The notes beneath the pieces were generated by a model that searched no databases, was not told the origin of the DNA, and was given only the letters and a program-made list of their open reading frames with translations. Below, piece by piece: positions 37,374 through 45,022 of a stretch of DNA of 49,847 nt (positions within the stretch are counted from its first letter, which is position 1; each line of letters opens with the position of its first letter). The position numbers were made by a program, and so were the translations under genes. The stretch comes from Bacillota bacterium (lineage in GTDB: Bacteria; Bacillota; Dethiobacteria; DTU022; PWGO01): assembly GCA_012518215.1 (NCBI GenBank), contig JAAYSV010000053.1, positions 1-49,847 on the forward strand, read 5' to 3'.

Positions 37374-38003
37374 TTGGAATTGAAGGAAATAATCCGGAGA
37401 AGAAGAAGTATCAGGCGTTACAAAGAGGAACCTCTACCCCATGATGTGATTGAAGAGCTGCTGCTGGCGGCGCGGGCGGCCCCTTCGGCTACCAATCGTC
37501 AACCATGGCGTTTTGTTGTCGTCAGGGACAAAGACCTGAAGAACCACCTCGGCGAAGCTATCACCCAATCCTTTGTTACCAGAGCTTCGGTGATCGTGGT
37601 TTGCTGTATTGACCGCCGTTCCTTTACCCGCGGTGTTCTTCAAAAAAGGGTGGAAGAATTGGTTTCCGCCGGAGTCATGGAACGAGAGGTGGCCGAATTG
37701 TTGTATCAACGGAAGATGCCGGAGAAGACGGAGGAAGTTGGCATACCGGTTTCCGCTTACATCGATATGGGTATCGCCATAGAACACATCATACTGCTTG
37801 CTGCCGACATGGGAATAGGGAGTTGCTGGGTGCGTATGTTCGATGAAGAGAAATTATCTTCCATCCTGAATTTGCCATCCCGGTTGACTCCTGTGGCGAT
37901 TATTCCATTGGGCTATCCGGCAGAGGACCCCCCGGCGCGGCCTCGCCTTCCCTTGCATGAGATCGTCTGGAAAGTGGGAGAAAAAGGGGATATGCCGGAT
38001 TGA
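37374..38003 (+). CDS. Nitroreductase-family FMN oxidoreductase
   Basis: 209 residues of the nitroreductase fold. RRRSIRRYKEEPLPHDVI at the start and AARAAPSATNRQPWRF for FMN binding are typical, with GIGSCWVRMF later and IPLGYPAEDPP near the end. The natural substrate is unknown; relatives reduce nitroaromatics, quinones or flavins. TTG 37374 follows ACAGGGGGAAAA. Independent of the preceding regulator by about 50 bases, so the two may be co-transcribed. Confidence 0.92.
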   Translation: MELKEIIRRRRSIRRYKEEPLPHDVIEELLLAARAAPSATNRQPWRFVVVRDKDLKNHLGEAITQSFVTRASVIVVCCIDRRSFTRGVLQKRVEELVSAGVMEREVAELLYQRKMPEKTEEVGIPVSAYIDMGIAIEHIILLAADMGIGSCWVRMFDEEKLSSILNLPSRLTPVAIIPLGYPAEDPPARPRLPLHEIVWKVGEKGDMPD

Positions 38004-38039: not shown

Positions 38040-38339
38040 TTAACTGATCCTGCATGTCCAATCGTTTCCGCTGTTGTTGTCCCAGTTGTCAGCACTGTCC
38101 TTGAAACAGAAGTTCATCTCGCGTTTACCCTGTATCTTTGCATCACAGGAAAACGTTTTCTGCATGGACTGGTTCATGGGGATATCCATTGCGTTTTTCC
38201 ATCCATCAAAACCGCAGTGCATCCAGATGTTGTCGGCACCGCTTTGCGCCAGCAGTCCACGGTACTCGATGCTCACTTTCTGTCCACGGCGGGGGTTGCC
38301 CGGTTCCATGGAAATACGATCGTCCAGGTGCATCGTCAA
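38040..38339 (-). CDS. Small CBM25-like (starch-binding) module protein
   Basis: About 98 residues resembling a single family 25 carbohydrate-binding module: VSIEYRGLLAQSGADNIWMHCGFD would be the core, cited by IWMHCGFDGW with the aromatic residues that contact sugar, and FCFKDSADNWDNNSGNDW near the end. No signal peptide and no catalytic domain, so it is probably cytoplasmic. It may help bind glycogen or starch. AAAGGAGG (on the minus strand near 38347-38354) is well placed for TTG 38339; ATG 38333 is an alternative. Convergent with the nitroreductase gene. Confidence 0.75.
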   Translation of the reverse strand: MTMHLDDRISMEPGNPRRGQKVSIEYRGLLAQSGADNIWMHCGFDGWKNAMDIPMNQSMQKTFSCDAKIQGKREMNFCFKDSADNWDNNSGNDWTCRIS

Positions 38340-38542
38340 ATCATGCCTCCTTTCTTGATTGGGTCATTTTTATTCTTCCTCGGCACACCCGAATTATTTA
38401 TGTAACAGTTCAATATTGATATTTATTCAACATACGCTGTGTATTGAATGGTTTGAATAAAGTCAAGCGGTGAAGATAGTTCCAAGAAAAATGGTAGAAA
38501 ATCGAAAAACCCGGGCCGGACGAAATTTCAAATAAAATATGT

Positions 38543-38571
38543 TTGAGAACTTTACTGATTATGGATATAAT
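38543..38571 (+). promoter_or_regulatory. Sigma-A promoter of the HesB-like selenoprotein gene
   Basis: TTGAGA (38543-38548), 17-base spacer, TATAAT (38566-38571). It would give a leader of only about 25 bases before ATG 38602, with AGGAAGG at 38586-38592 as ribosome binding site. A complete expression signal argues against a dead gene. Confidence 0.7.
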
Positions 38572-38601
38572 ATTGGAAAATCAACAGGAAGGTAATGTCA
38601 G

Positions 38602-38922
38602 ATGATAAATATCACAGAAACAGCCAAAAACAAGTTGAAAGAAATTTTGAAACAGGAAGGAGTGGAGGAAGCATATATTCGTATTTACTTCCGTAGAATT
38701 GGGTGAAGGGGTTCCCAACTGGGGCTGGCTCTGGAAGAGCCTGTAGCAAATGAAACGGATATCGTGGAAGAACTGGATGGCCTGTATTTTTTGTATGAAC
38801 GGAAAATATCCCGGCATATCGCCAACAAAACGATAGATTACCGGTCCGGGTTCAACAAAGGGTTTGTTTTCAAAGAACATGGCCCTGAATTCAATACTGG
38901 CAGCGGTTATTGCGAATTATAA
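38602..38922 (+). CDS. IscA/HesB-like selenoprotein (in-frame UGA read as Sec)
   Basis: 106 residues if TGA 38704-38706 (codon 35) is read as selenocysteine. The N-terminal part (MINITETAKNKLKEIL, IRIYF) and the part after UGA (LGLALEEPVANETDIVEELDGLYF, cited by LGLALEEP) both match the A-type iron-sulfur/HesB fold. Sec35 aligns with the first of the three conserved Cys of IscA (Cys35 in E. coli). The C-terminal Cys-x-Cys is reduced to GSGYC with Cys104. HesB-like proteins with Sec at this place are a known bacterial selenoprotein family. A SECIS-like hairpin and a promoter support it. Role in cluster or redox chemistry unknown. The alternative, a nonsense mutation in a pseudogene, is less likely as the frame stays open for 71 codons after UGA. 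Confidence 0.78.
38727..38741 (+). promoter_or_regulatory. SECIS-like hairpin downstream of UGA
   Basis: GGCTC (38727-38731), loop TGGAA, GAGCC (38737-38741): a perfect 5-bp stem with a 5-base loop, beginning 20 bases after the UGA. Bacterial SECIS elements are small stem-loops at about this distance with a G among the first two loop bases, and here the second loop base is G. GCT/AGC further out (38723-38725 and near 38745-38747) may extend the stem across a bulge. Confidence 0.65.
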
Positions 38923-39161
38923 GCCGGGGGTTTTACCCCCGCTGACAGACAAGGGATCGGTCAATGCCGATCACGAATAAAATATGTCGAAACAGGCATG
39001 CTTCAAACTTTTCAATGCGCACGTGATTTTTGCAGGTAACGCATCTTGCTTCATATCATAAGAAAAGATCCTGTAAAGTAACCCACGGATTTTTTGACGG
39101 CCTATTGACAATCTGCACGAGCCCATTCATGCAGGGGAAGAATAAAAATAGAGGTGGTAAG

Positions 39162-39806
39162 ATGGAAAAAATAAAAGTAAAATGGTTCGGTCATGCCATG
39201 TTCATGATTGAGCAGAAGGCTTTCAGGATCGTTACCGATCCGTATTCACCGGAAATAGGTTATCCTTTTCCCGATATAAATGTGTCGCTGGTTTCTGTAA
39301 GCCACGATCATTATGACCATAACAATGTTGAAGGCCTGAAAGGCAACCCCGTGATTGTCCGTGACATCGCACCGCTCATATACGGACCGGTCTCATTCGA
39401 GGGGCTGGTTACTGATCACGATGAAGATGGCGGATCCCGGAGGGGTAAAAACATTGTATTCAAGTGGCATATCGGAGGGATTACCTTTGCTCATATGGGT
39501 GATTACGGGGAAGCAGAACTGACTGATGAGCAGCGCCTTTTCCTTGAGCCGACTGATGTGTTGATGATCCCCGTGGGCGGGGTCTATACGATTGATGCGA
39601 AGAAAGCTCGTGACATAGTGAATGCTGTTTCACCAAGGGTAGCCATTCCGATGCACTACAAGACCCCCATGTTAAATATCGAAATAGACTCGCTTGACAA
39701 CTTTATCAAGGGTCTGAAGAACGTTAAACATATGGGCAAAACGCTTTCACTCAAGAAGGAAGATCTCCCTCCCGCCACAGAAATCTGGGTCATGGAATCG
39801 AGCTAG
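39162..39806 (+). CDS. Metal-dependent hydrolase, UlaG-like metallo-beta-lactamase fold
   Basis: 214 residues with the MBL fold. KWFGHAMFMIEQ at the start, VSVSHDHYDHNNV (the HxHxDH-type metal motif), AHMGDYGEAEL and AIPMHYKT carry the expected metal ligands. This small stand-alone branch is annotated as UPF0173/UlaG-like; substrate unknown. ATG 39162 follows AGAGGTGGTAAG; the in-frame extension to 39030 is not family-like. Its end overlaps by four bases the convergent gene at 39803. Confidence 0.9.
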   Translation: MEKIKVKWFGHAMFMIEQKAFRIVTDPYSPEIGYPFPDINVSLVSVSHDHYDHNNVEGLKGNPVIVRDIAPLIYGPVSFEGLVTDHDEDGGSRRGKNIVFKWHIGGITFAHMGDYGEAELTDEQRLFLEPTDVLMIPVGGVYTIDAKKARDIVNAVSPRVAIPMHYKTPMLNIEIDSLDNFIKGLKNVKHMGKTLSLKKEDLPPATEIWVMESS

Positions 39807-43688: not shown

Positions 43689-43883
43689 TTGGGTAAAATC
43701 GGAATATGGGAGATAGTAGTAGTGCTGGTAGTGGCCTTGATTGTCTTTGGTCCAACCAAGTTGCCCGAGATCGGCAGGGCAATAGGAAAAAGCATCAATG
43801 AGTTCCGGAAGGCAGCAAGCGATATCAGAAAAAGCATAGATGTTACCGGGGTGGATCTGGAAGAAGACGATCAGGGCGAATAA
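43689..43883 (+). CDS. tatA: Twin-arginine translocase subunit TatA, first copy
   Basis: 64 residues, one membrane segment (about 5-20) then the hinge FGPTKLPEIGRAIGKS and an amphipathic helix, the classical TatA/E layout. TTG 43689 follows GCGGGGGTGTG. Together with the next tatA and tatC it forms a minimal Tat export system for folded, cofactor-containing proteins. Confidence 0.92.
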   Translation: MGKIGIWEIVVVLVVALIVFGPTKLPEIGRAIGKSINEFRKAASDIRKSIDVTGVDLEEDDQGE

Positions 43884-44029: not shown

Positions 44030-44230
44030 ATGTTGGGAGGAAAGATTGGCCCGTTGGAACTGGTGTTGATTCTGGCGGTGGTCCTGCTCATATTTGGTCC
44101 CGGGAAATTGCCCAGTTTGGCAAAAGCCATTGGTCAAAGCGTTACGGAGCTTAAAGATGGGTTGCGCGGGAAACCAAAAAAACAGGCCGCCCCCGAGACA
44201 TCGGGTGAAGAACAGGAAATTAACGACTAG
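44030..44230 (+). CDS. tatA: Twin-arginine translocase subunit TatA, second copy
   Basis: 66 residues with one membrane segment (about 8-22), FGPGKLPSLAKAIGQS and a charged tail. AAAGGAGGTAATGACAG gives a very strong ribosome binding site before ATG 44030, so it is probably made in excess over the first copy. One of the two may do the TatB-like job, but both have the TatA-type FGP hinge. Confidence 0.92.
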   Translation: MLGGKIGPLELVLILAVVLLIFGPGKLPSLAKAIGQSVTELKDGLRGKPKKQAAPETSGEEQEIND

Positions 44231-44251: not shown

Positions 44252-45022
44252 TTGAACAAACACCGTAAAGATTCCATGACGGTATTGGAACATCTGGGAG
44301 AATTACGGCTGCGCATTTTAATTTCTGCTGCTACTTTTATTGCGGCTGCCATTTTTTGTTTTACCCGGGTCGACTATCTCCGTTATCTTCTGGTTAAACC
44401 CGGCGGGGGCATGAAGCTGTTCTTTTTTTCTCCCCCGGAAGCATTCATGGCCAATATGCGCCTGGCCGCGGTTGCGGGTCTGGCCCTTGCTTTTCCGGTA
44501 TTGATCTATGAACTGATGGCTTTTATTTTCCCGGGTTTGTACCGTCATGAGAAAAAATTTTTGCTGGGGCTTACGGGTGGTGCGGTAACCCTTTTTGCTG
44601 GCGGGGCCCTTTTTGCTTACTATGTTATCGTGCGGTTGGTTCTTCATTTTTTTATTCAATTTGAAACCGAGCGGCTTACACCTTTGTTCAACATCGGTGA
44701 TTATATATCTTTTACAATAAATTTAATATTGTGTTGTGGCCTTTTCTTTCAGCTGCCGTTGGCGATGTGGATACTGAGTAAAATTGGTTTGATCACCGCA
44801 AAGACCTTGAAGCGCAATCGGAAGTACGCCTTGTTGATCATTCTGGTTGTAGCAGCTATTCTCACGCCGCCGGACATCATTTCCCAGATACTTCTGGCCA
44901 TTCCGTTGCAGGGATTGTACGAAATCGGGATCATGGTCGTGGTATTCTCGGAGAGGAAGGGGATCAAGAAGGGGGCTGCGGAAGAAATCAATACACCCGG
45001 AATTGGAGAAGAATATGACTGA
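44252..45022 (+). CDS. tatC: Sec-independent translocase TatC
   Basis: 256 residues with six membrane segments. MTVLEHLGELRLRI holds the conserved Glu and Arg of the signal-peptide site, and FSPPEAFMANMRLA, FVLIYEL-like and LTPPDIISQILLAIPL the other family motifs. TTG 44252 is used. The end overlaps mobA by eight bases. Confidence 0.94.
   Translation: MNKHRKDSMTVLEHLGELRLRILISAATFIAAAIFCFTRVDYLRYLLVKPGGGMKLFFFSPPEAFMANMRLAAVAGLALAFPVLIYELMAFIFPGLYRHEKKFLLGLTGGAVTLFAGGALFAYYVIVRLVLHFFIQFETERLTPLFNIGDYISFTINLILCCGLFFQLPLAMWILSKIGLITAKTLKRNRKYALLIILVVAAILTPPDIISQILLAIPLQGLYEIGIMVVVFSERKGIKKGAAEEINTPGIGEEYD

Follow-up and report, generated by a model that had tools for sequence, protein, structure and literature searches.

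Knowledge of HesB-like selenoproteins goes back about twenty years: a 2006 table of 25 bacterial selenoprotein families includes them (PMC1794560), and they appear again in later reviews (PMC9312934, PMC13188914). In the archaeon Methanococcus maripaludis, the HesB-like selenoprotein MMJJ_08070 is reported to have been found by mutagenesis and 75Se labelling, with a disruption mutant not impaired in nitrogen fixation (PMC11097638). In archaea, SECIS elements are usually found in the 3'-UTR (PMC13188914). The A-type carriers are described as binding their clusters through the first cysteine and two tail cysteines, the latter two being essential (PMC7144353). For the HesB-like selenoproteins themselves, we found no established function in the literature.

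The DNA analysed here, hereafter the window, is a stretch of 49,847 nt from Bacillota bacterium (GTDB lineage Bacteria; Bacillota; Dethiobacteria; DTU022; PWGO01), assembly GCA_012518215.1, contig JAAYSV010000053.1. A preliminary description, made from the letters of the window, had interpreted one of its genes as a selenoprotein gene, and this interpretation is supported. The gene is a true gene for a small selenoprotein of the HesB-like kind, and its internal UGA is predicted to be read as Sec; the family is already described, and the window gene is a further member of it. Our overall explanation, to which we assign a probability of about 0.9, is a 106-residue HesB-like selenoprotein with a SECIS-directed Sec35, in which Sec is probably the working group. 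That the predicted product is a translated selenoprotein is, in our judgement, almost certain. The features considered are collected in Table 1.

Table 1. The selenoprotein gene, its signals and neighbours (window positions), and the Sec-decoding genes of the host genome (positions on contig C8)
Feature	Position	Strand	Basis
IscA/HesB-like selenoprotein CDS, 106 aa	38602..38922	+	translation with TGA=U; Pfam and NCBIfam matches; PDB fold matches to IscA/SufA
In-frame UGA, predicted Sec, residue 35, first conserved Cys of the A-type fold	38704..38706	+	alignment to HI1723/AQ_1857; UGA in all class homologs
Bacterial SECIS hairpin, GGCUCU-GGA-AGAGCC	38727..38741	+	core in 70/70 homologs, compensatory stem changes, synonymous-site conservation
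Cys104 codon, sole Cys of the window protein, tail TGSGYCEL	38911..38913	+	translation and relatives
Shine-Dalgarno-like AGGAAGG, 9 nt 5' of the ATG	38586..38592	+	sequence
Sigma-70-like promoter, TTGAGA-17-TATAAT, 11/12 matches, not significant by count	38543..38571	+	motif count
Nitroreductase-family gene, upstream neighbour	37374..38003	+	Pfam PF00881, E 3.2e-35; conserved in G046 (synteny L081)
MBL-fold hydrolase gene, downstream neighbour	39162..39806	+	Pfam PF13483, E 2.7e-45; conserved in G046 (synteny L081)
selA	C8:179931-181301		above family cut-off
selB	C8:177971-179857		above family cut-off
selD	C8:177000-177920		above family cut-off
tRNA-Sec (selC)	C8:188570-188661		above family cut-off

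The reading frame, its fold and its UGA

The frame runs from the ATG at 38602 through a TGA at codon 35 and 71 more sense codons to a TAA at 38920-38922, exactly as the preliminary description had it. The AGGAAGG site it placed upstream of the ATG is also present, as is its TTGAGA-17-TATAAT promoter; the latter carries little weight as evidence because ~2.0 such sites would be expected by chance in a region of such size, where one was found.

Pfam PF01521 (Fe-S_biosyn) spans residues 2-97 of the window protein (E 4.5e-7, 30.5 bits against a cut-off of 26.3). An AlphaFold model of the window protein (pLDDT 82.9), computed together with 67 relatives, has its best PDB matches in E. coli IscA, AQ_1857, HI1723, and SufA (1r94, 1s98, and 2d2a among the matches). 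Both results bear out the claim that the codons downstream of the UGA continue the IscA/HesB fold, and predicted membership in this fold is confirmed on both sides of the UGA. The UGA was said to fall at the first IscA Cys, and it does: in a comparison with solved structures, its position coincides with the GCSG cysteine of HI1723 and AQ_1857, and it aligns also with the Sec/Cys column of relatives. Since the model has low confidence over its last 12 residues, it gives no usable distance from residue 35 to Cys104.

The window protein scored 57.8 bits (E 1.1e-15) against NCBIfam NF038090 (IscA_HesB_Se) and 32.6 bits (E 9.3e-8) against TIGR01911 (HesB_rel_seleno), below the curated cut-offs of 85 and 66.35, respectively. 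At a threshold of <1e-3, all 68 class members match NF038090 and 67 of the 68 match TIGR01911. Because the NF038090 cut-off is reached by no genome of the class and by none in a sample of 398 genomes from the phylum, we consider it narrower than the clade, and the sub-cut-off score is taken as a limit of the model rather than a failure of membership. Curated NCBI thresholds are too tight for this branch, so annotation may miss such genes or record them as truncated.

Homologs were found in 54 of the 71 order genomes and 67 of the 98 class genomes, and every listed homolog carries the in-frame TGA. Relatives with a sense codon at this position, which the preliminary description had named as counter-evidence, were found nowhere among the listed homologs of the 98 class genomes, and no class relative has another stop codon in its place. 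The predicted Sec is kept in every class relative found, even where the iron-sulfur-binding cysteines are lost. The wider phylum sample (398 genomes) contains Cys forms as well as Sec forms; in genome G100, a Cys form of the subfamily (GMGCSGPNFG, L139) accompanies a UGA-bearing copy. Genomes of named organisms gave only distant matches, at 27-29% identity. As selA is present in 89 of the 98 class genomes, co-occurrence of the gene with selA is uninformative as a test.

Hairpin and decoding machinery

The hairpin proposed in the preliminary description, GGCTC-TGGAA-GAGCC, does start 20 nt past the UGA. If a U-A closing pair is included, the stem has 6 bp and the loop is the 3-nt GGA (38733-38735), which lies 26 nt past the UGA. 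This geometry agrees with that given for bacterial SECIS elements, namely a stem of 4-16 bp, a loop of 3-9 nt, a G within the first two loop positions, and a distance of 16-37 nt from the UGA (PMC13188914). Taken alone, the hairpin is weak evidence. The stem by itself reaches -7.4 kcal/mol, just short of a threshold of -7.5 (a larger stretch reaches -14.6), and the 73-nt region folds no better than its shuffles (z 0.54). An equally stable hairpin stands in SECIS position at 47 of the 1835 TGAs of the window (2.6%) and in 1514 of 20000 synonymous recodings (7.6%). On the z score and these two rates, the hairpin was dropped as proof from a single sequence. An Rfam scan of 38500-39100 gave no match.

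It is through conservation in relatives that the evidence for a SECIS becomes, in our reading, decisive. The core CUCUGG(A/U)NGAG was observed in 70 of 70 distinct homologs, 22 nt past the UGA (25 nt in four), a count that, like the others over these 70, is inflated by shared descent. The loop-adjacent pairs C-G, U-A, and C-G are invariant across the set, stem pair -2/12 is GC or AU in all 70, and stem pair -1/11 is GC, GU, AU, UA, or UG in 69, so that the two sides of the stem vary together. The Leu codon in the hairpin is CUG in 70/70, against 145/416 (35%) at other sites of these genes; the Ala/Thr/Ser codon before it is NNU in 70/70, against 271/1083 (25%). Judged by these codon counts, protein constraint cannot explain the synonymous-site conservation in the hairpin. 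The same core occurs in Sec relatives elsewhere in the phylum. Where the window copy has GGCUCU-GGA-AGAGCC, most relatives have GGCUCU-GGA-AGAGUC or GACUCU-GGA-AGAGUC, and the GC pair of the window copy at -1/11 is thus a stem-strengthening change.

The host genome assembly comprises 2.14 Mb and is 97% complete. A search for selA, selB, selC, and selD, which the preliminary description had put forward as a check, found all four above their family cut-offs; selA, selB, and selD are consecutive on C8, with tRNA-Sec nearby. The host selD itself carries an in-frame UGA, in the context RSAG-U-AAKIG, as do two formate-dehydrogenase-like (fdhA-like) frames (HCARV-U-HAPTVA and HQARV-U-HSPTVA). Because the sel genes, tRNA-Sec, and these UGA-bearing selD and fdhA-like frames are all present, the host organism very probably decodes UGA as Sec in several of its genes. 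UGA is also an ordinary stop in this genome, for example in the nitroreductase gene. Chance loss of the decoding machinery was considered and is ruled out by selA, selB, selD, and tRNA-Sec in the genome.

The UGA-bearing formate-dehydrogenase alpha-like genes of the host (G000) lie at C55:41729-43714 and C56:2903-5767 (L159, L160), and the second was matched only in several pieces. In a different genome (G070), a SelA domain was observed together with PAS, GGDEF, and HD in one ~850-aa open frame (L164:1-2538, minus strand). The SelA domain of the fusion frames gave a Pfam E of 6.6e-58 and contains the motif GDKLLGGP, which holds the PLP lysine in SelA. A further fusion candidate is L165:2-2386 (minus strand; G066), and similar long-frame SelA matches were seen in G045, G053, G054, G062, G067, and G069; Pfam confirmation of the SelA/PAS/GGDEF/HD fusion was obtained for L164 only. 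It is unusual for a cyclic-di-GMP protein to carry a SelA-like (selenocysteine-synthase-like) domain.

Tail cysteines and the state of the window copy

The fold, the Sec codon, the SECIS, the decoding machinery, and the class-wide conservation of Sec are established here by comparison of sequences. In the mechanism that we propose, SelB with Sec-tRNA-Sec would bind the hairpin 3' of the UGA, and Sec would be inserted at residue 35, in place of the first IscA Cys. The Sec35 selenolate would then act as a redox or persulfide/selenenylsulfide centre, or as a low-coordination ligand of a metal or cluster; a tail Cys (Cys104 in the window copy) would be an optional partner. We consider the selenolate the probable working group because Sec is invariant, whereas tail cysteines vary in number between 0 and 4.

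Across the 68 relatives, two or more tail cysteines were counted in 48, one in 12, and none in 8. The tail of relatives from the order is mostly CGxCxC or similar, while that of the window protein reads TGSGYCEL. The preliminary description had noted a C-terminal Cys pair reduced to one and called this unusual; the reduction is real, but with one or none in 20/68 relatives, it is not unusual. Low and high tail-Cys states interchange at least five times on the tree, which is poorly resolved and built from a short alignment. Seven of the 68 are Cys-free and keep Sec, and six of these seven end in TAA or TAG. The Cys-free HesB-like selenoproteins are L100 (G093), L115, L117, L124, L109, L110, and L111; L109-L111 have SVT-U-GGPS around Sec in common, and where they occur in G060 and G063, the genome carries a second copy as well.

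These counts bear on whether the protein is a classical A-type Fe-S carrier with Sec in the role of the first Cys ligand, passing on to clients the clusters that Sec35 and the tail cysteines hold between subunits. The best structural matches, IscA and SufA, speak for such a carrier, as does the described need for two tail cysteines in A-type proteins (PMC7144353), and the 48 relatives with at least two would fit a cluster ligand role there. However, the three Cys ligands of A-type carriers are not found in the window protein, where the first is Sec and the tail offers Cys104 only, and seven relatives are Cys-free with Sec invariant, which fits poorly with three-ligand binding as the conserved function. 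We therefore regard the classical carrier as a possible but rather doubtful account. A Sec-centred redox, sulfur-handling, or low-coordination metal role would explain the pattern more simply. We lean slightly towards such Sec-centred chemistry over the textbook three-ligand carrier, because function appears to survive loss of every Cys and never of Sec. More tentatively, the HesB-like selenoproteins of the class may form a branch that has moved past cluster carriage, with Sec as the sole essential reactive residue and the tail cysteines dispensable; on its IscA fold, the protein would then serve in redox reactions or sulfur/selenium transfer based on Sec. As weak functional context, some relatives in family f2 have an ArsR-type regulator and a CoA-disulfide-reductase-like/rhodanese/TusA/DsrE fusion in their neighbourhood.

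The residues around Sec are atypical, as had been pointed out, with G32R, G36R, and P38S at nearly invariant columns. At columns conserved to >=90%, the window copy departs five times (in alignment numbering G34R, G38R, P40S, S50P, and C107T, of which the first three correspond to residues 32, 36, and 38), the most of the 51 order-level copies; the next three copies depart four times. Its end branch is 0.98, against a median of 0.17, and is the third longest in the tree. Together with the tail Cys loss, these features would suit a decaying pseudogene or relic, that is, a former HesB-like selenoprotein on which selection was relaxed in the window lineage. The preliminary description had named frameshifts or relaxed selection as signs against a selenoprotein, yet the frame is intact apart from the Sec codon, without a frameshift, and the UGA and full SECIS core, including its synonymous positions, are kept along a branch with roughly one change per residue. 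The same-family relative G047, which looks healthy, departs at four such columns and is equally divergent. The gene order, from nitroreductase through HesB-like and MBL-fold hydrolase on to Tat genes, is the same in the same-family genome G046, and the host genome has no second HesB-like selenoprotein copy.

The nearest relatives of the window protein are ~48% identical to it. Its identity to two same-family copies is 48% and 40%, those two being 40% identical mutually, and SelA from the same three genomes gives 57-61% for all three pairs; by this comparison, the divergence of the window copy does not appear extreme. Decay seems unlikely because the UGA, the hairpin, and the place between the same neighbours as in the G046 relative are kept; we put the chance of a relic very low, and the window copy is judged to be a divergent functional member. 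A pseudogene by frameshift was also considered and rejected: the +1/+2 frames of the 3' end, inspected by eye, restore no tail Cys motif. Between the nitroreductase and selenoprotein genes lies, on the opposite strand, the gene of a stand-alone 99-aa protein with a carbohydrate-binding module (CBM53, E 8e-12; window 38040-38339, minus strand). Farther on, twin tatA-like short frames (43689-43883 and 44030-44230, plus strand) are followed by a tatC-like frame (44252-45022), as recognised by eye from the translations.

That the UGA is a true stop, leaving a 34-residue peptide or a chance alignment and an untranslated downstream frame, is improbable in the extreme: UGA does end ordinary host genes, as at 38003, and the hairpin alone is common by chance, but the match to the family extends 3' of the UGA as far as residue 97, all class relatives keep the UGA, and the hairpin is conserved at synonymous sites.

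Comparison with known systems

What this locus adds to the described family is a class-wide fixation of the predicted Sec, a SECIS with compensatory changes, and a branch below the NCBI curated thresholds. Also new are natural variants in which Sec would be the only chalcogen nucleophile, Sec being invariant in the alignments while tail cysteines number 0-4. The importance is modest and lies in the retention of Sec in the class even where the cluster cysteines are gone, which makes the clade clean material for asking what selenium does.

The closest described systems are the HesB-like selenoproteins of TIGR01911 and NF038090, with which the window protein shares the fold, Sec at the conserved Cys, the UGA with the SECIS core, and a Sec-decoding genome of the anaerobe type. 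It differs from them in scoring below both curated cut-offs, in the replacement of G32, G36, and P38, and in having one tail Cys. MMJJ_08070 is likewise a HesB-like selenoprotein; it belongs to an archaeal system, and the likeness is by description, not sequence. IscA, SufA, and ErpA have the same fold and the same first Cys/Sec position, whereas the window protein has Sec for Cys, GURGS for GCSG, and no tail CxC motif. The DsrR of Allochromatium vinosum, which works in sulfur oxidation, is an A-type homolog without the cluster cysteines and offers a precedent for a working IscA fold from which they are missing. It has an IscA-like fold (PDB 2k4z) that the AlphaFold model of the window protein matched, and it differs from the window protein in being without Sec.
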